Assembly (NCBI RefSeq): GCF_008630935.1
Contig: NZ_CP043908.1
Span: 744,001 to 808,000, forward strand
Reading direction: 5' to 3'
Origin: Thermodesulfobacterium sp. TA1
GTDB taxonomy: Bacteria; Desulfobacterota; Thermodesulfobacteria; Thermodesulfobacteriales; Thermodesulfobacteriaceae
Length of the DNA: 64,000 bases
Shown here piece after piece: positions 1 to 12,072 of the stretch. Each line of letters opens with the position of its first letter. Positions within the stretch are counted from its first letter, which is position 1. A program made the translations under genes and the position numbers. Under the pieces are notes generated by a model, which saw nothing but the letters and a program-made list of their open reading frames with translations, did no database searches and was not told the origin of the DNA.

Positions 1-996
1 GTAACAGAATTAGCGGAGGCTCAGAAGAGGACCGAGGAGAGACTAAATGAGTTAGCGGAAGCTCAGAAGAGGACCGAGGAGAGACTAAATGAGTTAGCGG
101 AAGCTCAGAAGAGGACCGAGGAGAGACTAAATGAGTTAGCGGAAGCTCAGAAGAGGACCGAGGAGAGACTAAATGAGTTAGCGGAGGCTCAGAAGAGGAC
201 CGAGGAGAGACTAAATGAGTTAGTGGAAGCTCAGAAGAGGACCGAGGAGAGACTAAATGAGTTAGCGGAGGCTCAAAAGAGGACTGAGGAGAGAGTAAAT
301 GAATTAGCAGAAAAAGTAAATGAGTTAGCGGAAGCTCAAAAGAGGACTGAGGAGAGACTAAATGAGTTAGCGGAGGCTCAAAAGAGGACTGAGGAGAGAG
401 TAAATGAATTAGCAGAAAAAGTAAATGAGTTAGCGGAAGCTCAAAAGAGGACTGAGGAGAGAGTAAATGGATTAGCAGAAAAAGTAAATGAGTTAGCAGA
501 GGCTCAGAAGAGGACTGAGGAAGAATTGAAAAGTCTTTCCCAAATCGTAGCAGAGCTTGTGGTATCTCATAAAAAGCTGGCAGAGGCTCATAAAATCACA
601 AGGGAACAACTCGGTGGTTTAGCACACACCGTAGGGTATGTTTTAGAAAACGAAGCGTATAAATACCTTCCTAAACTACTTAAAAGGGATTTTAACGTTG
701 AAGTTGAAGGAAGGATCATAAGAGACTATATAGAGGTTTTACCCAATAAATATGAAGAAATAAATATTTTAGGTAGGGGCAAACTTGGGGAAGAACCTGT
801 AGTTATTATAGGTGAGGCCAAGGCGCAGCTTAAAAAATCTGATATAGACCAATTTATCAAGCGAGTGCAAAGGTTAGAAAAGTTTTTCCCAGAGAAAAAA
901 GTGTTGGTCCTGGTTACCCATCAAACTTCTCCTCAAGTTAGAAATTATGCCGAGACCAAAGGACTAAAAATCTATTTTTCCTATGAATTTGATTAG
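1..996 (+). CDS. Coiled-coil protein with C-terminal nuclease-like domain (5' partial)
   Basis: The reading frame is open from the first base, so the true start lies upstream of the window; the GTG at 223 is only an internal codon. The N-terminal part is built of 14-residue (two-heptad) units of the type [14 protein letters not shown] and is certainly a long coiled coil. The last ~130 residues form a globular domain with a conserved Glu in NEAYKYL, then EEINILGRG and the strand VVIIGEAKA. This is the E...(D/N)...ExK layout of PD-(D/E)XK nuclease-like folds, as in proteins usually labelled DUF3782. The position that is often Asp in that fold seems to be Asn here (INILG), so catalysis is uncertain. 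Substrate and role are unknown. A gene of its own transcription unit follows after 132 bp. Confidence 0.8.
7..531 (+). repeat. 42-bp in-frame tandem repeat array with 21-bp half units
   Basis: Eleven 42-bp units (starting at 7, 49, 91, 133, 175, 217, 259, 322, 364, 427 and 490) each encode 14 residues. Three 21-bp half units (301-321, 406-426, 469-489) encode ELAEKVN or GLAEKVN. The first six units are almost identical at DNA level (acc/cag codons), while later ones use act/caa, so the upstream part looks recently expanded. The array continues to the window edge and its full size is unknown. All units keep the reading frame. Confidence 0.95.
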
Positions 997-1069
997 ATAA
1001 CTTTTCATGAAAACTCTTTGGTTACGTTTATAAATTTAAACTCACAATATTAATAGTATCTTCTAAAAA

Positions 1070-1097
1070 TTGACATAGAAAACTAACGTGTTATCTT
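1070..1097 (+). promoter_or_regulatory. Candidate sigma70 promoter for the znuA-like gene
   Basis: TTGACA at 1070-1075, a 16-bp spacer and TATCTT at 1092-1097. This would give a leader of about 25 nt that carries the Shine-Dalgarno-like AGGGAGA at about 1117-1123. The -35 is perfect and the -10 matches four of six. Confidence 0.45.
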
Positions 1098-1128
1098 TAA
1101 AACGATAAATAAGCTTAGGGAGAAGTTT

Positions 1129-1962
1129 ATGAAAGTCCTTAAAATTTTATGTGTTTTATTAATTTTTATTTTTTTGGGAAATAATAAAGTCTTAGCCCTT
1201 AATCTTGTGGTTTCAAACTCAGCTTTAGAAAAAATCGTAAAAGAAATAGTTTCTACCAAGCATCAAGTTATTACCTTACAATCTGAAAACAAAGATTTTC
1301 ATAGTTTTGAGCCTACTCCTTCTCAATGGAACTTTATTAGAAGGGCAGACTTGGTGATTATCGTAGGTACAGAACATTGGGCTATGAAAACCTATCAAAT
1401 AAGGGCTAATAAACCTTTACTAACTTTAGCGCAAGGACAAACCAGGTTTAAAGACCCGCATTTGTGGTTTGATTTAAGCAGGGTTAAGGCGCTCGTTTCA
1501 AATTTGGTTAATTTTTTAGAGACAAGAGACCCTTTTAACCGAGATTTTTATCATGAAAGGTTGCAGCTGTTTTTGCACAATCTTGTTAAATTAGAAGAAA
1601 AGGCTAAAAGCTTAAGAAATTGCAGGTATAAAGAGGTCTATATTTTAGGACATCCTGTGTTTGGATATCTATTAGAGCCTTACGGAATAAAAGAAAAAAC
1701 CCTTATTAAGGGACATCACAAAGAAGGGGAGCCTAGCGTAAAACTTCTTACAGAGATATTACAAAATGTAGAAAAAAGGCATCCTAAGGTTGTTTTTTTA
1801 ACCGACCCGGAGTTTGAACGCTATGTTTCTTGGTTTAAAAATAAAGGAGTAGAGGTGATAAAACTTTGGTCTGGAGGAACCTATAGGTTTCAAGGTAGCT
1901 TTATAGAACTTTTAGACTATAATCTAAGTTGGTTTAGTTATGCCTTAGGCTGTGGAAAATAA
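1129..1962 (+). CDS. Metal ABC transporter substrate-binding protein, ZnuA-like
   Basis: The 277-residue protein has a signal peptide (about residues 1-23, Lys then a hydrophobic core ending VLA). It carries the metal-ligand pattern of cluster-9 Zn/Mn binding proteins: His in DFHSFEPTP, His in DPHLWFD, His in GHPVFGYL and an acidic residue in LTDPEF. These proteins capture Zn2+ or Mn2+ in the periplasm and hand it to a permease. No permease (ZnuB) or ATPase (ZnuC) lies beside it, so its partners must be elsewhere. The His-rich loop seen in many ZnuA proteins is missing apart from GHHKEG. It starts at ATG 1129 with AGGGAGA upstream. It sits 18 bp before secDF and may be co-transcribed with it. 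Confidence 0.75.
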   Translation: MKVLKILCVLLIFIFLGNNKVLALNLVVSNSALEKIVKEIVSTKHQVITLQSENKDFHSFEPTPSQWNFIRRADLVIIVGTEHWAMKTYQIRANKPLLTLAQGQTRFKDPHLWFDLSRVKALVSNLVNFLETRDPFNRDFYHERLQLFLHNLVKLEEKAKSLRNCRYKEVYILGHPVFGYLLEPYGIKEKTLIKGHHKEGEPSVKLLTEILQNVEKRHPKVVFLTDPEFERYVSWFKNKGVEVIKLWSGGTYRFQGSFIELLDYNLSWFSYALGCGK

Positions 1963-1980
1963 GACATCAGGAGGTAAAGG

Positions 1981-4563
1981 TTGTCTCTAAAACTCAAGTT
2001 AAAAATCCTTTTTCTTCTTTTTTTGATAGGATTTGCCGGTCTCTTACTTTTACCTACTTTTGTGCCTAACCTTCCTCCTTGGTTCAAAAAATACGTCTAT
2101 CGAGGAGAGCTTAAGCTTGGACTTGATTTAAAAGGTGGGGTCCATCTGGTTTTACAGCCTGACATGGATAAAGCTATGCAAAACCAATTTGAAAACTATA
2201 TTCAAGACATTAAAGCTCAACTAAATAAATTAGTTTCCTCTACCTACGACGTATCGATAGATAGACTCAGCGCTGTTTTTAAGTTTAAAGACCAAAAAGA
2301 TGTGGTGGCTTTTAAGGAAGAGGTTCTAAAGGGTTTTAAAGAGATAACCATAGCCAAAGAATACCAAGAAGGTAGCGTCTTTTTAGTTGAGGTAACCTTA
2401 TCTAAGACACAGATTGATTATATAAAAGAAAACCTTTTAACCCAGGTTTTAGAAGTAATAAGAAACAGGGTAGACCAGTTTGGGGTTTCAGAGGCGGTTA
2501 TCACCAAACAAGGGAAAGACAAGATAGTCGTTCAGCTACCAGGGCTTAGAGACCCAGAAAGAGCTATAAATATTATAGGACAAACCGCTCAACTTGAGTT
2601 TAGGTTGGTAGACGAAGAGACGATGCAAAGGCTTGATTTAGAAGTTTTGGTTAGGTCTTTGGTAGAATCAGGTAAAATTTCTCTGGATGCCCCAATAGAA
2701 GAATGGAGAAAAGTCCTTTCTTCTTATATACCTCAAGATTCTCAATTTTATTTTGTGGTTGAAAAAGATAGGGAAACCGGAAAGGTTATCAAAAAGCCTA
2801 TCGTGCTAAAAAAAGAGGTCATGCTAACAGGAACTTATTTAAAAACCGCCCAGGTAAGGATTAATCCGCAGAATAACGAGCCTTATGTATGGATCCAGTT
2901 TGATTCAAGAGGAGCAAAGATATTTGAACTTATTACTGCAGAAAATGTAGGCAGGCGTTTAGCGATTGTGCTTGACGAAGTGGTTCGGTCAGCTCCGGTA
3001 ATTAAAGAAAAAATTTCAGGGGGAGAGGCCCAAATTACCGGAAGTTTTTCTATGCAAGAAGCCTCTGACCTGGCTTTAGTTTTAAGGGCAGGGGCTTTAC
3101 CAGCTCCGGTAAAGATTTTACAAAATATTACTATAGGTCCTTCCTTAGGTGCTGACTCTATCAAAAAAGGTATAATAGCAGGATTGATAGGAGCAACTGC
3201 GGTTATCGTCTTTACCTCTATTTATTATAAAATATCAGGGGTAATCGCGGTTATTGCTTTGGTGTTAAACGTTTATTTTCTTTTAGCCCTGCTTTCTGCT
3301 TTCCAAGCTACCCTTACTCTTCCAGGAATTGCAGGTATTATCCTTAGCATAGGTATGGGGGTTGATTCAAACGTACTTATTTTTGAAAGGATAAGAGAAG
3401 AATTAAGAACAGGAAGAACAGAGTTTTCTGCGATTTTTCAAGGATATTCTAGAACTTTTGTGACTATTTTTGACGCCCATGTAACCGTCCTTATCACCTC
3501 TTTAATCCTTTTTATCTTTGGCACCGGTCCTATCAGAGGGTTTGCAGTGACTTTATCTATCTCTATTTTAGTAAATCTTTTTACCGCTATCTTTGTAACC
3601 AAGATTTTTTACGAATATCTTTATGAAAAAGGTAAAGAATTTAAGGTAAAGTTTTTTGAATTAATCAAAAATCCAAACTTTAATTTTATGAAGTTTAAGA
3701 AACCTTTTGCTATTTTATCTTTAATCCTTTCTTTGATTGGATGTTTGGGGATGGTGCAGGCGTTTTTAGGTAAAGCCAATTTGGGCATTGATTTTACAGG
3801 AGGAACGATAATCTATCTTTCCAGTGAAAAAACCCCTAACTTAGAATTATTAAGAAAAACCCTCGAAGAAAATGGAATAAAAGATTTTATGCTCCAGGAC
3901 ATAAAAAAGGAAAACATGGTGCTTCTTAAGGTAAAAAGTAGTAAGGAAAGTCTTACAGATGAAGTAAATTATATTCTTTCAGTTTTAAATAAAAATTTAC
4001 CGGATTATAAATTTAGTGTGGTTGCCAAAGAGGAGATAGGGTCTACCATAAGTAAGGAATTAAAACACAAAGCCGCTTTAGCCATTTTAGGCTCACTTTT
4101 AGGTATTATCGTTTATTTAGCCTTTAGGTTTAACGTTTATTTTGGTATAGCTGCAGGTTTAGCGACTTTACACGATGTTTTAGTAACTTTTGCTTTGTTT
4201 TATCTTTTAGGAAAAGAAATCAACCTACTTTTTATTACAGCCCTTCTTACCTTGGCAGGTTATTCTTTAACCGACACGGTGGTAATTTTTGACCGTATCA
4301 GAGAAAACTTGCAAAAATACAGTTTTGCTAACTTTGATCAGCTTATCAACAAGAGTATTAACGATGTATTTTCTCGAACGATAATCACAGTGCTTACTAC
4401 TCTTTTTGGGTCTTTGAGCCTTCTTTTGTTTGGAGGGGTCGTGATAAGAGATTTTGCTTTAGCTTTAACCATAGGTTTTATCGTTGGAACCTACAGTTCT
4501 ATTTTCTTAGCTTCGCCTTTATTACAGGTGTTACATAAAGGAAAACTTCCGCAATTTAAATAA
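1981..4563 (+). CDS. secDF: Protein translocase subunits SecD-SecF fused
   Basis: An 860-residue fusion of SecD (about 1-560) and SecF (about 570-860), the proton-driven membrane proteins that help complete protein export at SecYEG. The SecD half has the periplasmic-entry motif LGLDLKGG (46-53) and the channel motif IGMGVDSNVLIFERIREE (from about 457). The SecF half repeats these as LGIDFTGG (from 601) and LAGYSLTDTVVIFDRIREN (from about 758). Twelve membrane helices are expected. Many bacteria encode secD and secF separately; the fusion is known from Bacillus and some other lineages. The start is TTG at 1981, supported by a strong AGGAGG at 1969-1974. No yajC is adjacent. The 3' end overlaps convergent fmt by 8 bp. 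Confidence 0.95.
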   Translation: MSLKLKLKILFLLFLIGFAGLLLLPTFVPNLPPWFKKYVYRGELKLGLDLKGGVHLVLQPDMDKAMQNQFENYIQDIKAQLNKLVSSTYDVSIDRLSAVFKFKDQKDVVAFKEEVLKGFKEITIAKEYQEGSVFLVEVTLSKTQIDYIKENLLTQVLEVIRNRVDQFGVSEAVITKQGKDKIVVQLPGLRDPERAINIIGQTAQLEFRLVDEETMQRLDLEVLVRSLVESGKISLDAPIEEWRKVLSSYIPQDSQFYFVVEKDRETGKVIKKPIVLKKEVMLTGTYLKTAQVRINPQNNEPYVWIQFDSRGAKIFELITAENVGRRLAIVLDEVVRSAPVIKEKISGGEAQITGSFSMQEASDLALVLRAGALPAPVKILQNITIGPSLGADSIKKGIIAGLIGATAVIVFTSIYYKISGVIAVIALVLNVYFLLALLSAFQATLTLPGIAGIILSIGMGVDSNVLIFERIREELRTGRTEFSAIFQGYSRTFVTIFDAHVTVLITSLILFIFGTGPIRGFAVTLSISILVNLFTAIFVTKIFYEYLYEKGKEFKVKFFELIKNPNFNFMKFKKPFAILSLILSLIGCLGMVQAFLGKANLGIDFTGGTIIYLSSEKTPNLELLRKTLEENGIKDFMLQDIKKENMVLLKVKSSKESLTDEVNYILSVLNKNLPDYKFSVVAKEEIGSTISKELKHKAALAILGSLLGIIVYLAFRFNVYFGIAAGLATLHDVLVTFALFYLLGKEINLLFITALLTLAGYSLTDTVVIFDRIRENLQKYSFANFDQLINKSINDVFSRTIITVLTTLFGSLSLLLFGGVVIRDFALALTIGFIVGTYSSIFLASPLLQVLHKGKLPQFK

Positions 4564-5488
4564 GGAGGTCTCCAGGTTTAAACCTTCTGCCGCAGGCAAA
4601 CTCAAACCCAGACATCTTTTTTTTTCCTTCTGGCTGGACTTCTATCAACAGAATAGCTCCTTCTGAGGTTGCCACCAAAAGCCCTTCTTGGTTTATTCTT
4701 AGAATTTTCCCTGGGATTTCCTTTTCGGAAGGTTGGGCTTTCGCCTGGTAAACCTTAAAGATTTTTCCCTGGATATAGGTATAGGCTGTAGGCCATGGGA
4801 TAAAGGCTTTTACCTTTCTTTCTATAAGCCAGGCAGGGTCTTCGAAGGTAAAAAATCCGTCCTCTTTTTTCAGCAAAGGTGCATAAGAAACCCCTTCATC
4901 AGGCTGAGGAGTAGGTTTTAATAAACCTTTTTTATGTAGTTCTATGGCTTCTAAGATAGCTTCTTTTCCAAGTTGGCTAAGCTTTTGGGATAAGGTTAAG
5001 GCGTTATCCTCTGGATTTATAGGTATTTTTTTTTGTAAAAGGATAGGACCGGTGTCTAAGCCTTCATCCATAAGCATGATGGTTATCCCTGTCTCTTTTT
5101 CTCCTTCTAAAATAGCCCAGTTGATAGGAGAAGCCCCTCTATACTTAGGTAATAAAGAAGCATGTATGTTCCAGCATCCAAACTTAGGGACCTCTAAGAC
5201 TTCCTTAGGTAAAATCTTCCCATAAGCGCAAACTACGATAAGCTCTGGAGATAAGTCTTTTAAAGCCTTTAAAAACTCTTCGTTTCCTTTTATCTTTGGA
5301 GGGTCTAATACATAAAGCCCTTTTCCTAAAGCCCAACTTTTTACCGCACAGGGTAAGGTTTTTAATCCTCTTCCTTGGGGCTTGTCTGGTTGGGTAACTA
5401 CTGCAAGAACTTTTTCTTTCTCATAAAGACCCTCAAGAGGATGGATGGCAAACTCTGGACTTCCAAAATAAACGATACGATACCTCAT
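4556..5488 (-). CDS. fmt: Methionyl-tRNA formyltransferase
   Basis: The 310-residue protein formylates initiator Met-tRNA with 10-formyl-tetrahydrofolate. The N-terminal formyltransferase domain has the catalytic Asn107 and His109 in NIHASLLPKYRGA and Asp145 in MDEGLDTGP. The C-terminal tRNA-binding domain follows residue ~205. Length is normal for the family. Start ATG has GGGAGA upstream. The usual partner def is not next to it. It stands alone on the minus strand, converging on secDF and diverging from uppP. Confidence 0.95.
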   Translation of the reverse strand: MRYRIVYFGSPEFAIHPLEGLYEKEKVLAVVTQPDKPQGRGLKTLPCAVKSWALGKGLYVLDPPKIKGNEEFLKALKDLSPELIVVCAYGKILPKEVLEVPKFGCWNIHASLLPKYRGASPINWAILEGEKETGITIMLMDEGLDTGPILLQKKIPINPEDNALTLSQKLSQLGKEAILEAIELHKKGLLKPTPQPDEGVSYAPLLKKEDGFFTFEDPAWLIERKVKAFIPWPTAYTYIQGKIFKVYQAKAQPSEKEIPGKILRINQEGLLVATSEGAILLIEVQPEGKKKMSGFEFACGRRFKPGDLLI

Positions 5489-5651
5489 TTTTTCTCCCTT
5501 TCTATTAAAAATCTTTTATAGGATCATCAAAATTGTTTGTTGTATAAACCAAAAAATCGATTATGTTTAATCAATTTAACAAAAGTTAAGAAAAATAAAA
5601 GGCTGGTTAGGTGAATAACTTGAAATATTTATCTTAATCAGGAGGTTCTTT

Positions 5652-6422
5652 ATGGATCTTATTCATGCGGCGATTTTAGGGATAGTAGAAGGTTTAACCG
5701 AGTTTTTACCTGTTTCTTCTACAGGCCATCTTATCCTTACCGCTCATATCTTAGGAATTCCTCATACTAACTTTACCAAGACCTTTGAAATAGCCATTCA
5801 GTTGGGTTCTATTCTTGCGATTTTGTTTCTTTATTTTGAGAGGTTTTTAAAAGATTTTGAAACTTGGAAAAGGATTATTTTAGCCTTTATTCCTACAGGG
5901 GTTTTAGGTTTTCTGCTGTATAAAATTATTAAAAAATTTTTTATAGGTAATGACCTTTTAGTAGTAATAAACTTAATTTTAGGAGGAGTAGTTCTTTTAT
6001 TTGTAGATAGACTCTTTCAGAAGGGTAAGAAAATGGAAGATGTTAAGGAAGTTAGCCTGAAGAAAGCCCCTTTAATAGGAATTTTTCAAGCTTTAGCGAT
6101 GGTTCCTGGGGTTTCTCGTTCTGCAGCAACCATCATAGGAGGGATGTTGGTAGGACTTAACCGAAAGGCTGCGGCGGAATTTTCTTTTATGTTAGCTTTT
6201 CCAACCATGTTTGCTGCAACCAGTTATGATTTATTTAAATCCTACTCAGAAATATCTTTCCAGGACTGGCAAACCCTTTTGGTAGGTTTTATCTTTGCCT
6301 TTATTACCGCTTTAATAACCGTTAAAACCTTTCTTAGGTTTATCGCTAAACATAGTTTTTTTGTCTTTGGGGTTTATCGAATTTTAGTAGGTCTTATTTA
6401 CTTTTTAGTTTTTTTAAGATAA
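5652..6422 (+). CDS. uppP: Undecaprenyl-diphosphatase (BacA/UppP family)
   Basis: A 256-residue polytopic membrane enzyme that dephosphorylates undecaprenyl pyrophosphate to regenerate the lipid carrier for peptidoglycan and O-antigen. Both signature motifs are present: GIVEGLTEFLPVSSTGHL (10-27) with the catalytic Glu residues, and PGVSRSAATI in the middle. Length is typical. AGGAGG sits 6-7 nt before ATG 5652. It fits functionally with the flippase, WecA-like and glycosyltransferase genes further along the window, but is not in their operon. Confidence 0.95.
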   Translation: MDLIHAAILGIVEGLTEFLPVSSTGHLILTAHILGIPHTNFTKTFEIAIQLGSILAILFLYFERFLKDFETWKRIILAFIPTGVLGFLLYKIIKKFFIGNDLLVVINLILGGVVLLFVDRLFQKGKKMEDVKEVSLKKAPLIGIFQALAMVPGVSRSAATIIGGMLVGLNRKAAAEFSFMLAFPTMFAATSYDLFKSYSEISFQDWQTLLVGFIFAFITALITVKTFLRFIAKHSFFVFGVYRILVGLIYFLVFLR

Positions 6423-6461
6423 AATTTTATATAAAAATAAAAATCGATAAGGATAACCCTT

Positions 6462-7358
6462 ATGATGAAAAAGATACTTGTGGTTGGTGGGACAGGTTTT
6501 GTTGGTGGTTATTTGGTGTCTGAACTGTTAAACCGAGGTTTTAAACCAACCCTCTTGGTAAGAGATTTAGAAAAAGTTAAAACTCGATTCTCAGGTTGTG
6601 ATTTTATCGTAGGAGATCCTGTAAAAGAAGGAAGTTGGCAAGCTGAAGTTCCGAAGTTTGAAGTAGTAATCAATTTAACCGGCCAAAACATATTTGGAAA
6701 ATGGACTGAAGAGTACAAGAGACTGATTTTAGAAAGCAGGATTAAATCTACAGAGAACATCGTTAACTCTTTAAAAGAAGGTTCTTTTTTAGTAAACGCT
6801 TCAGCCATAGGATATTATGGAGATAGAGGGGATGTTTTGGTAGACGAGACAGCCCCACCAGGGGATGATTTTTTGGCTAAGGTATGTGTAGAATGGGAAA
6901 AAAAGGCAAATGCAGCTAAAGAAAAAGGATGTAAGGTTGCTATAACTCGTTTTGGGATTGTGCTTGGAAAGGGAGGGATGATAAAGAAGGTTTTACCTGT
7001 GTTTAAATGGGGATTAGGAGGAACCTTAGGCAACGGAAAACAATGGTTTTCCTGGATACATATCCAGGATTTAGTAGCCGGGTTGCTTTTTTTGATAGAA
7101 ATAGACCTTGAAGGAGTTTTTAATTTTACTTCTCCTCAACCTGTAACCAACAAAGAATTTACCAGGGCTTTGGCTGAGGTTTTAAGAAAGCCTGCCTTTT
7201 TTAGGGTTCCTAAATTTATGTTAAAGTTAGTTTTAGGAGAACTGGCTGAAAGTATCCTTGCCAGTATAAAAGCTTATCCAGAAAGATTGATAAAAGAAGG
7301 TTTTACGTTTAATTATCCAGAAATAAAGAATGCTTTAAAACATATTATACAAAACTAA
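6462..7358 (+). CDS. TIGR01777-type NAD-dependent epimerase/SDR protein
   Basis: A 298-residue extended short-chain dehydrogenase. The nucleotide-binding GGTGFVGGYLVSELLNRG is at residues 8-25 and SAIGYYGDRGD provides the YY(G) active-site region of the TIGR01777 (YfcH/SulA-like) family. The C-terminal ~50 residues (KFMLKLVLGELAESILASIK and after) match the DUF1731 tail of the same family. The physiological substrate is not known for most members. ATG at 6462 or 6465 are both possible, with AAGGA about 11 nt upstream. It follows uppP by 39 bp on the same strand. Confidence 0.8.
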   Translation: MMKKILVVGGTGFVGGYLVSELLNRGFKPTLLVRDLEKVKTRFSGCDFIVGDPVKEGSWQAEVPKFEVVINLTGQNIFGKWTEEYKRLILESRIKSTENIVNSLKEGSFLVNASAIGYYGDRGDVLVDETAPPGDDFLAKVCVEWEKKANAAKEKGCKVAITRFGIVLGKGGMIKKVLPVFKWGLGGTLGNGKQWFSWIHIQDLVAGLLFLIEIDLEGVFNFTSPQPVTNKEFTRALAEVLRKPAFFRVPKFMLKLVLGELAESILASIKAYPERLIKEGFTFNYPEIKNALKHIIQN

Positions 7359-7389
7359 CCACCAAGGCAGTTTAAAGGTTTTTAAAAAA

Positions 7390-8494
7390 CTAAGTCAATA
7401 AATGGATATTACCTATAGATACCTTTTTTAAGCCTGCATTTTTTACAATTTCAATACAACGCAGGGCAAAAACTTTTGAGGTAAGAGGCAAATCTTTCAT
7501 ATAAAAATGGGGATAAAAGGCAAGCAACCTATAGGGAATTTCTGGATTTAAACTTGCAATAAACTTTGCTATTCCTTCCACCTCTTTTTCATCAACATAT
7601 CCTGGGACAAGAAGGGTACTTGCTGTAAGTAAAGGAACTTCGTTTCTCTGGTTAAAATATTGAGCTACCTCCGCAAAGTTTTCTAAAATTATTTCGTTTC
7701 CGTACCCAGTCAAGGCAAAATGAACTTCTTTACTAAAGGCTTTTAAGTCAAATTTAACGATCCCACCAGATTCTAAAGCAAGTTCTACCGCTTTTTTTAA
7801 AAAATTTTTTGAAAACAATCCGTTTGTTTCCCAGCAGATGCGAAGTATTTTATTTTTTTTTTATTTTTAAAGCTTTTTGGCTAAACTTTATGGCAAAGTG
7901 GGCTTGAGGAGATGGGTCCCCTCCAAAGAAACATACACAGGCTATCTTTTCATTAAGAATAGAAAGCATAGAGTCTATACTAACCCATTTACTCGAAAAA
8001 GTAAGCTCTCTAAAACGCCAGTTTTGACAGTAAAGGCAGTTAAGGTTACAGGCATGAAAGAAAACCGCAAGGTTATAGTAGCCTTGTTCAGCTGAAGGTT
8101 TGTAAGCGTATTGGGGATAACCTATACCTGTGCCTCCTGGACAAATCCAGTCTGCAACACAGTTTGTTGGTAAAGGGTCAAAATACCAAGAAACCTTAGC
8201 TAATCGTGCATCACAACCCGATAAAAAATTTTTTTTGTTTTTCTTAAGTCCGCAATATCCGAAACCTTCATCAGGAATTTTACAAGAGAGAGAACAGATT
8301 GAACAAGTTTTTCCTTCGCTTTCCTTAGGAATAATTTTAGGTAGATTAAAGATTTCTCTTGTTTTAGTATGTGCTTTTTGAATAAAGGGAATTGCTTCTT
8401 TAAACCTTAGCCTTACGCAGTCTATGCATACACCAATAGTTTGAGAAATAACCAGGCTTTGTTTTTTACAGATAAAGCAAGTTTTGATTTTCAT
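7390..8494 (-). pseudogene. Radical SAM protein, split by a frameshift in an A10 run
   Basis: The N-terminal part (8494 down to 7853, about 214 residues) has Cys pairs in the first 90 residues and the radical SAM cluster motif CNLNCLYC, followed by FFGGDPSP. It then runs into AAAAAAAAAA and stops at once. The other frame continues without a break as KILRICWETNG and 142 more residues (PGYVDEKEVEGIAKFI, FYPHFYMKDLP). RICWETNG is the expected next strand of a radical SAM barrel, so both pieces are one protein of ~363 residues. Removing one A from the run restores it. Either the gene is decayed, the run is a sequencing error, or the frame is restored by slippage on the A-run. The family is related to PflA-like activating enzymes; the substrate is unknown. 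No Shine-Dalgarno precedes ATG 8494. Confidence 0.8.
7853..7862 (-). other. A10 homopolymer at the frameshift point
   Basis: Ten consecutive A on the coding (minus) strand separate the two frames of the radical SAM gene. Nine A would give one continuous frame reading KIKKNKILRICWETNG; twelve would also restore it. Confidence 0.9.
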
Positions 8495-8650
8495 AAATTA
8501 AAATTTTAAAACAATATACCCATAAAATAAAGGGTCCACATCCGATACCTTAAATTCTATGATACAGCATGAAAATTTTGATAATGGAAAAGTTACTTAT
8601 AAAATTAAGGTAATGGGTAAAAGTTAAAAACCGGCTAAAATCAATATATT

Positions 8651-9514
8651 TTAAATTTTCTTAAATTGTATTACTATAGACTTGAGCTGCTTTTCTGTTA
8701 TCTCTAAATTTTTTGAAAGATTTAGCATGTTTTGAGTAATCTCTTCTGTAATTTTAGCCTGGTCTTCTATAGCTAAAAACATGTCGTTTATTAGATGTTC
8801 TACATTTTCTGCCATTTTATAGTTAGATTCTACGAAAGTATACAGTTCATTTAAGGTTTTTATGTTTTTATCTAAATTCTCTTTAAGGGTAAAGATTGAG
8901 TTAGTAAAAAAGTTGATGTTTTTTTCTACAGAAAGGATACTTTCGTTGATATGTTTGGCAAACTGATTGGTTTTATTAGCTAATTTCCTTATTTCTTCTG
9001 CAAGGACGGTAAAACCCTTTCCTGCAAGACCAACCCGTGCTGCCTCTATAGAGGCATTTAAAGATAGTATGGTTGTTTGTTCTGCGATGTTATGTATTTC
9101 TGTTAAAGAATTTTTAATCTCCTGAAAAGAGGTTTGCATCTTTTGAGAAGTTTCTACAAAAGATTTAAGACTACTTTCTATCACTTTTACCTCTTCTATC
9201 ATTACATTTATTTTCTTTTTAGATTCTTCTGATTTTTTAACCAAGTTGTCTGTTTCATTTTTAATCGGTAAAATTTTTTCAGAAAGGGTGTTTATGGCAA
9301 AATTAAACCTTTCTACCAAGTAGGAAATGTATTTTCCAGACTCTTGAGAAAGTTGTAAAGCCTTGATAAGCGCATTAGAAACATAATTTGAAAGACTTTT
9401 TATGTAAGAAAATTTCCAAAGTTTTTGTGCAATTTTTTTAACATTCTTAGGATAAGGGGAAGAGAATGAAGAGCTATCTATCTTTTTGTTTTCTTGTTTA
9501 AAGAATTTAAACAT
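8651..9514 (-). CDS. Soluble methyl-accepting chemotaxis-like protein
   Basis: 287 residues with no membrane segment and no sensory domain of known type. The middle contains the highly conserved hairpin tip of MCP signalling domains: [17 protein letters not shown] followed by [18 protein letters not shown]. This is the part that contacts CheA and CheW. Long helices on both sides give a short coiled coil, much shorter than a full transmembrane receptor. It is the last gene of a trio and starts 15 bp after the ODP gene, so the likely sensor input is that di-iron protein, acting as a separate subunit. Start ATG has GGGAG upstream. No cheA, cheW or cheY lies in the window. Confidence 0.85.
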
Positions 9515-9529
9515 GTTTTACTCCCTTAA

Positions 9530-10300
9530 TTAGTAGATTTGGTCGATAATGTCAAGTCCACAAGTAAGGGTTTCAAACCAGTTTAAGAATTTTTTCACGT
9601 TATCTCCCTTAAAGATGGCACCATGTTGAGGTGTTATCATGGTTGGATTAAGAGGTCTTACTAAATTTACCCATTTTTTGCATACCTTATTGCTTCCCAT
9701 ATACCTTTTATGGAAACCTTCCATTAGCTTTACATGATTTTCAAAGTTTTCCACAAAAAGATACCTTTCTCCTTTAGGAAAAACTGCAGCCCCTATATCT
9801 CCAGAAAACAGAATTTTACTTCTCGTATCAAAAACTGTAAAATTCCCTTTAGAATGAAGAAAATGAGCAGGAATAAAAAGAAGCTTATCTCCTGAAGGTA
9901 AGGTTAGTTCTCCTCCTTTGTCCTCTAAAGGAATGGTTCGTTTTAAAGAGTTATAGCCAAAATGAGGAATAAACCTTATCCAAAGTTTGCTTATGTAAAC
10001 TTTAGCGTTGGTATTTTCTAACCAGGTAATAATCCCTGAGCTTACGTCAGGGTCTTGATGAGAGAAAAAGATATAATCTATATTTTCTATGTCTATGTAA
10101 TTAGCAACAGCCGCTAAAACCCTTGGGAAAACATAAACTCCGCCTGGGTCAAGAAGGATTCCTCTTCCTTTATTAACGATTAAGTATTGGTTGGTTTGTA
10201 CTAACCCTTCTTCTTCCTCTTCTTCCCATCCTAACCAGATAAACTTATGGTCGCTGTCCTCGTAAAGGACTATCCCTTTTATCAACTGCTCTCTTTCCAT
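9530..10300 (-). CDS. Oxygen-binding di-iron protein (ODP), metallo-beta-lactamase fold
   Basis: 256 residues with the di-iron metallo-beta-lactamase ligand set of flavodiiron and ODP proteins: His81, Asp83 and Asp85 in SHQDPDVSSG, His146 in PAHFLHS, Asp168 in FSGDIGA and His226 in TPQHGAIF. The flavodoxin domain of a flavodiiron reductase is absent, so this is the stand-alone ODP form. In Treponema denticola such a protein binds O2 and feeds chemotaxis (established knowledge). Here it lies between two MCP genes on the same strand, which supports the same role in an anaerobe avoiding oxygen or NO. Start ATG has GAGGAGA upstream. A hydrolytic role is less likely, given the family. Confidence 0.82.
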   Translation of the reverse strand: MEREQLIKGIVLYEDSDHKFIWLGWEEEEEEGLVQTNQYLIVNKGRGILLDPGGVYVFPRVLAAVANYIDIENIDYIFFSHQDPDVSSGIITWLENTNAKVYISKLWIRFIPHFGYNSLKRTIPLEDKGGELTLPSGDKLLFIPAHFLHSKGNFTVFDTRSKILFSGDIGAAVFPKGERYLFVENFENHVKLMEGFHKRYMGSNKVCKKWVNLVRPLNPTMITPQHGAIFKGDNVKKFLNWFETLTCGLDIIDQIY

Positions 10301-10356
10301 ACCTTCTCCTCTTTTAACGGATTTTAATTAAAAATTATAACTAAAAATTAAAAAAG

Positions 10357-12072
10357 TTAAAGGGTAAAAACAGAGGTTTTTTCTCGTAATTCCTCTTCTA
10401 TCTTTTTAATATCTTCTGTAGTATCAAGAAGGATAGAAATGTTTTTCTTTAGTTCTTGCACACCTTCTGCAACGCTTCCTACATCCTTTGCCACAGCCTC
10501 AGACGTTACACTCATCTCTTCTGTTGCAGAAGCTATGCTCTGTATCATCTCTTGCAATCTCTCGGCAGCATCTGCTATCTTAGCTAAGATAGCAGCAGCA
10601 TCCTCAGAAAGTTTGGTACCGTTTTCTACCTTTTTACCTATGTCTTCTACCTCTTGTTTAACCTCAGAAACCACACCTTTTATCTCTCTTATCGTATTTG
10701 CTATCTCATCGGTAGACTTGTTGGTTCTTTCAGCAAGCTTTCTTATCTCTCCTGCAACTACGGCAAAAGATTTACCGTGTTCCCCAGCCCTTGCAGCCTC
10801 AATCGTTGCGTTTAAGGCAAGAAGGTTTGTTTGTTCGGCTACGTCTTTTATAAACTCTATTACGTTTTCAATGGCTTTAGTTCTTTCTTCTAAGGTATAC
10901 ATAACCTCTTTAAGCTTATTTGTGGTTTTTTCGATAATCTTTACTTCAGAGGCGGTTTTAAGAGTATAATTTTCTCCTTCTTTTGCGATTTCGGCGGTTT
11001 TCTTAGATTCTTCTAAGATGTTGGTTGTGTTTTTAGCAATGTCAACCACAGTTATGCTCATCTCTTCGGCAGCAGAAGCAATTTGAGAAGCTTTTTCTGT
11101 TTGCAAGTCCAAATTGTCTTTAAACTGATTAGAAGCATTTGTTAAACCAACGGCTAATTGAGATAAATTTTCTGAAACATCCTTTACACTAAAAATTATG
11201 GCTTTAAGATTATTGACAGCTTCGTCTAAACTGTTAGCAATCTTACCTATCTCATCTTTTCTTTGAGTTTTAAACTGAATGTTTAAATTGCCTTGTCCAA
11301 ACAGCCTTATTTTTTCTTCAAGTTCAGAAATCGGATTAGAAATGGACCGCACAGATAAAAAGGCTAATAAAACCACGATAAATAAAATACCAAAAATAAT
11401 TACAACCGTTTTTATAATGTTCCTTTTTATAGCCTGGGTAAAGGCTTTATCAACGTCGTCTATGTATATCCCTGTTCCGATATACCAGTTCCATGGTTCA
11501 AACTTAACCACATAAGAAAGCTTAGGATAAAACTCTTGGGTTACTCCTCCTTGTTTTAATGGTTTAGGCCATTTATACCACACAAAAGCATGTCCTGTTT
11601 TGGAGGCAGTTTCTACCAAAAGGGTAAAAAGGTTTTGGTTGTTAACCTTTTCTTCTTTAGCAGAAAGGTCTGTTTGTCTCATATAGGCTACATTAAACTT
11701 AGAATCAGAAAGAGGTTTTCCTTCAAGCTGAGGAACCGTTGGATGCATTATCATTATAGGATAAGGTAAAGTACCATCGTTTATCCAAAAATAGTTAATC
11801 CCTTCTTCATAGCGAAGACTTTTTAAGGTAAGCTTAGCCTTTTCTTTAGCCTCTTCCTCTGTAAGGTTTCCTGCTTGATAAAGGTTGTAATAATTTTTAA
11901 CCACAGAAAGGGCGATTTCTCCTTTGTTCATCAGGTCTAATTTCTTTTCTCTTAAAATTGCTTCTTTTAAATAAAAAGACTGCAATAAGAAAAAAATCAC
12001 ATAACCGATTAAAGAAAAAAGAATTAAAATCAAAAGCTTACCCTTGATACTTAAGTTTTCAAACTTTTTCAT
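10357..12072 (-). CDS. Transmembrane methyl-accepting chemotaxis protein with Cache sensor
   Basis: 571 residues. TM1 (about 12-33), then a periplasmic single-Cache-type domain (about 35-215, with [18 protein letters not shown] and [13 protein letters not shown]), TM2 (about 218-240), a HAMP region (about 241-295), and an MCP signalling domain. Its tip reads [20 protein letters not shown], followed by [19 protein letters not shown]. Cache domains of this kind often bind small organic acids; the ligand cannot be told from sequence. The C-terminus (EKTSVFTL) has no CheR/CheB-tethering pentapeptide. AGGAGGT precedes the start. It is the first gene of the MCP-ODP-MCP cluster, with a 56-bp gap to ODP. 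Confidence 0.92.

Follow-up and report, generated by a model that had tools for sequence, protein, structure and literature searches.

A conserved gene pair for an oxygen-binding di-iron protein and a soluble chemoreceptor in Thermodesulfobacterium sp. TA1

In a 64,000-nucleotide stretch of the Thermodesulfobacterium sp. TA1 genome, which we call the window, three adjoining genes encode a membrane chemoreceptor with a Cache sensor, an ODP di-iron protein and a small chemoreceptor that lacks a sensor of its own. We consider it very likely that this locus is the known ODP chemotaxis unit, in which the ODP would signal O2 to the soluble receptor and from there to the array and CheA, with the Cache receptor as an ordinary neighbor. 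The locus illustrates a known system well and is no new version of it; what it adds is one more genus with the pair, preceded here by an additional receptor gene.

Gene organization of the locus

The genes lie on the minus strand in the order Cache MCP, ODP and 287-residue MCP, and their ORF coordinates leave gaps of 56 and 15 nt. The first encodes a membrane chemoreceptor of 571 aa (positions 10357–12072) composed of a Cache sensor, a HAMP domain and an MCP signaling domain, with Pfam matches to dCache_2 at 1.6e-38, sCache_2 at 1.4e-29, HAMP at 1.1e-7 and MCPsignal at 2.7e-38. It is followed by the 256-aa ODP (9530–10300, minus strand) and by the 287-aa soluble receptor that is its likely partner (8651–9514, minus strand). 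The first-pass annotation had described three genes with this domain content at 8651–12072, and both the coordinates and the Pfam domains bear it out.

A purine-rich stretch precedes the start of each downstream gene: an AGGAG-like stretch in the 56-nt, A+T-rich gap between the Cache MCP and the ODP (10301–10356, minus strand), and GGGAG, which resembles a ribosome-binding site, in the 15-nt gap between the ODP and the soluble receptor (9515–9529, minus strand). From this spacing, the ODP and soluble receptor genes are probably co-transcribed. The Cache MCP may share a transcript with them, and the 56-nt gap could be a candidate promoter site for the pair. Sigma-70-like matches (16 against 12.6 expected) and terminator-like matches (3 against 2.4 expected) were not taken as evidence. 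The host genome is a single contig of 1.83 Mb. At positions 7390–8494 of the window, a radical SAM gene is apparently split into minus-strand frames at 7850–8494 and 7390–7818 that cover consecutive parts of the profile (3–68 and 91–165, the second match below the cut-off); a frameshift or a sequencing error is possible.

Identity and iron site of the ODP

Homology identifies the window protein as a true ODP. It matches PF19583 at 1.8e-78 over profile positions 1–194 of 194, with a score of 263.3 bits against a cut-off of 27.2, and also matches Lactamase_B at 3e-20. Among PDB sequences it matches the ODPs of Treponema denticola (6qnm, 4.1e-105) and Thermotoga maritima (6qrq, 5e-104). The AlphaFold2 model has a pLDDT of 90.8, and ODP crystal structures fill ranks 1–10 of its structural matches, headed by the T. 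maritima ODP (6qwo/6qrq), to which the window protein is 59% identical. Its closest named relatives are the ODPs of Thermodesulfobacterium hveragerdense (92%) and T. thermophilum (91%), among the best 80 of 394 relatives.

The window protein has every di-iron ligand listed in the first-pass annotation (H81, D83, D85, H146, D168 and H226), and each of them is conserved in 82/82 aligned ODPs; for H81 to D83 the count is to some extent circular, since HQDP is part of one of the two scan patterns. The same count holds for V86 and for Q225, which is characteristic of ODP coordination and is missing from the annotation's list. By our own mapping, we take V86 and Q225 to occupy the published positions that distinguish ODPs. 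For relatives of this protein, O2 is known to bind at the di-iron site as a peroxo adduct, according to the title of PDB entry 6r9n. The flavo-diiron proteins (1vme, 1e5d and others) share the fold of the window ODP, but the latter lacks a flavodoxin domain and its metal site carries Q225 and V86. Pfam finds only ODP and Lactamase_B matches in the 256 residues, with no C-terminal flavodoxin domain.

A soluble receptor without a sensor

The 287-aa receptor is a plain signaling hairpin. It matches MCPsignal at 1.4e-30 and has no sensor domain above the Pfam cut-off, and its best 19-residue Kyte–Doolittle mean of 0.93, as against 3.3 in the Cache MCP, gives no membrane-type stretch. The AlphaFold2 model is helical over residues 23–286, and residues 1–18 have a pLDDT below 50; the best structural matches are chemoreceptors, including the soluble T. 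maritima receptor 3g67. Pfam, hydropathy and the helical model thus agree with the earlier description of an MCP without its own sensor. A pattern search did not find the full methylation motif in this receptor; the pattern is crude, being also absent from four of the genome's six membrane MCPs, and it was found in 10 of 79 soluble receptors.

Aligned with those six membrane MCPs, the soluble receptor shows no heptad-sized gap around the tip. The tip itself is recognizable but substituted ([25 protein letters not shown] versus [23 protein letters not shown] in the six other MCPs), so that entry of the receptor into the array is not certain; its long branch in the gene tree also counts against entry. 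The host genome encodes a single copy each of CheA, CheR and CheB, together with CheW domains and FliM/FliN-type matches. Because there is a single CheA, and because the tip aligns with the six membrane receptors without heptad-sized gaps, the ODP pair most likely feeds the common chemotaxis array of the cell.

Conservation of the pair across genomes

A scan of named genomes with the ODP alignment yielded 394 relatives, and we retained the 80 best (52–92% identity). A sensorless MCP lies directly downstream of the ODP on the same strand in 77 of these 80 loci; since they are the best of 394, the fraction is valid for close ODPs (52–92% identity). The MCP profile was seeded with four of the host genome's own seven MCPs (L004–L007). 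The pairs have a median gap of 6 bp, some gaps being distorted by the choice of start (minimum −460 bp), and a median receptor length of 288.5 aa where the receptor is complete; among the downstream MCPs listed, none has a predicted transmembrane segment. Their hosts, as labeled in the trees, include Aquificota, Spirochaetota, Thermotogota, Synergistota, Nitrospirota and Campylobacterota. The three exceptions are L069, where the contig ends; L103, with no MCP domain by Pfam in the three downstream proteins; and L068 (Nitrospirae bacterium S146_64, 1–9164), where the ODP sits in a che operon of the order cheA-cheW-mcp-mcp-ODP-cheR-cheD-cheB whose receptors are membrane proteins only, with no soluble one. 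The conserved, inherited unit is therefore the pair of ODP and soluble receptor, not a three-gene set. The link between ODP homologs and MCP genes, together with the retention of iron ligands, had been named as the point on which the first-pass annotation would stand or fall, and at the level of sequence these counts do not refute the link.

Within the genus, the same 4 of 14 Thermodesulfobacterium genomes hold both a stand-alone ODP (at least 264 bits) and the soluble receptor (85–100% identity), and CheA and FliM/FliN-type proteins occur in all 14. The genome search that had been proposed for the same gene pair and for cheA and cheW thus recovers the pair in 4 of 14 congeners and both cheA and CheW domains in the host. 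In the ODP and receptor trees (79 rows each), Thermodesulfobacterium and five Aquificaceae loci (L054, L055, L056, L059 and L062) form a nine-row clade among the rows listed in both cases (supports 100/94 and 99), a pattern that fits joint transfer of the pair between thermophiles. The adjoining epimerase gene is found in 13 of the 14 congeners. We compared 5 of the 9 ODP-less epimerase loci (L137–L141, outside genomes G000, G001, G007 and G013) as candidate empty sites; in all five the epimerase alone matches the window neighborhood, and therefore no empty site can be defined.

Comparison with characterized systems

In T. denticola, the ODP (TDE2498) is genetically coupled to TDE2496, a receptor without transmembrane and sensing modules, according to PMC7666581. 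The window pair resembles it in the ODP family (59% identity), the ligands, the sensorless partner and the single CheA of each organism. It differs in a strongly diverged receptor, only 16–20% identical to the aligned Spirochaetota receptors, and in the Cache MCP that stands upstream. The first-pass annotation had seen in the stripped soluble receptor a distinct version of the T. denticola arrangement; that view does not hold, given that TDE2496 is equally stripped and that all but 3 of the 80 best loci contain the same pair. Its proposal that the soluble receptor is the probable partner of the ODP is supported by homology.

At L107, a Thermotogota locus, the receptor adjoining the ODP matches 3g67 at 4.8e-65, and by this likeness the soluble T. 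maritima chemoreceptor (3g67/3g6b) looks like the ODP-coupled kind. Unlike the window, the Thermotogota loci among the best 80 have no upstream MCP. The five Aquificaceae loci, whose ODPs are 66–71% identical to that of the window and which are its sister rows in both trees, have the same gene order for the pair; in contrast to the window, none of them has an MCP on the same strand in the 400 bp upstream of the ODP.

The Cache receptor and alternative readings

The first-pass annotation had grouped all three genes as an oxygen-sensing trio, and here the comparison goes against it. On sequence grounds, the Cache MCP is a local neighbor and not a conserved part of the ODP unit, and among our results none points to oxygen sensing by the Cache domain. 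A real trio would have the ODP also talk to the Cache MCP, for instance in mixed receptor trimers, with a joint readout of oxygen and an external ligand. The two genes do adjoin in the window, in G001 and in G013, and the L068 operon joins an ODP to membrane MCPs only. Yet a same-strand MCP lies within 400 bp upstream of the ODP in just 3 of the 80 best loci (L052, L053 and L068), the Cache MCP frame of G013 is open over residues 107–571 only, and in G007 a different, 540-aa MCP adjoins the ODP, with a copy of the Cache MCP about 2.7 kb further up. We therefore regard a functional trio as unlikely. A related idea, to which we give equally little credence, is that the acquired pair has become tied to the Cache receptor in Thermodesulfobacterium and that its ODP could plug into membrane receptors, directly or through mixed trimers, combining oxygen with outside ligands, for which L068 may be compared. 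In G007 (L042:1345–5737), the Cache MCP is 78% identical to that of the window, two other genes stand between it and the 540-aa MCP, and the matched part of the latter is 58.6% identical and spans the signaling half; this arrangement looks like a local receptor duplication or exchange.

Two other explanations set aside signaling by the pair itself. Decay of a laterally acquired pair, with a soluble receptor that no longer signals, would be in keeping with the unusual tip and with a branch of 1.39 for the Thermodesulfobacterium soluble receptors in the gene trees, as against 0.22 for their ODP partners. The 287-aa frame is nevertheless open in four genomes at 85–86% identity, and all four congener ODPs retain the iron ligands, which makes decay very unlikely. 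Less probable still, to the point that we give it hardly any weight, is an ODP that acts as an enzyme, reducing O2 or NO or carrying out a hydrolysis, beside an incidental receptor gene. The fold shared with flavo-diiron proteins (1vme, TM-score 0.73) and the Lactamase_B match speak for it; against it stand the missing flavodoxin domain, the ODP-type Q225 and V86 in every aligned sequence, the fixed receptor neighbor and a 407-aa frame elsewhere in the genome that has a weaker ODP-profile match and the size of a flavo-diiron protein.

Proposed function and significance

The reading we prefer is accordingly that of the ODP chemotaxis unit. By analogy with studied relatives, the ODP, with its metallo-β-lactamase fold and no flavin domain, would bind O2 at the di-iron site. 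Contact between ODP and receptor and an effect on CheA are described in the T. denticola work (PMC7666581 and PMC6978683); on that model, the soluble receptor encoded by the next gene would read the state of the ODP through direct contact and would in turn alter CheA activity. We infer that the receptor would enter the array through its conserved tip; for the T. denticola array, PMC7666581 reports no obvious place for the ODP. The Cache MCP, encoded in front of the pair, would be a standard membrane receptor that detects an external ligand.

The genus Thermodesulfobacterium comprises thermophiles that reduce sulfate anaerobically. A cell with this unit would steer relative to oxygen, and for an anaerobe the direction, judged from the lifestyle of the genus, would most likely be away from it. 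A studied oxygen-sensing unit is now placed in this genus, and its presumably heat-stable proteins could help to solve the ODP–receptor complex. In a literature search for Thermodesulfobacterium and chemotaxis, neither term appeared in the titles and abstracts found; the 2019 ODP survey could list the pair.

ODPs in other contexts

According to PMC7319448, the 2019 work reported that ODP and MCP genes share operons, in either of two orders, and that ODPs also occur with other signaling genes or as fusions to signaling domains. Other genomes of the same phylum as the window have more distant ODPs, 46 and 45% identical in L048 and L049, whose loci lack the soluble receptor. At the L047, L048 and L049 loci that we examined there is no MCP-like neighbor, and the ODP as such is therefore not tied to chemotaxis. 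The stand-alone ODP of L048 (L048:3363–6883) lies 17 bp ahead of a signaling gene of another kind, whose product of 917 aa combines HDOD, HD, PAS and histidine kinase domains.

Long frames at ODP matches, two in G008 and one in G068, had been candidate ODP–MCP fusions and were rejected as such, since Pfam gives ODP plus GGDEF. G008 is a Thermodesulfobacterium relative without the ODP–receptor pair. The ODP–GGDEF fusions (L044:5021–6814, L045:5444–7144 and L046:4637–6391) suggest oxygen control of cyclic di-GMP.
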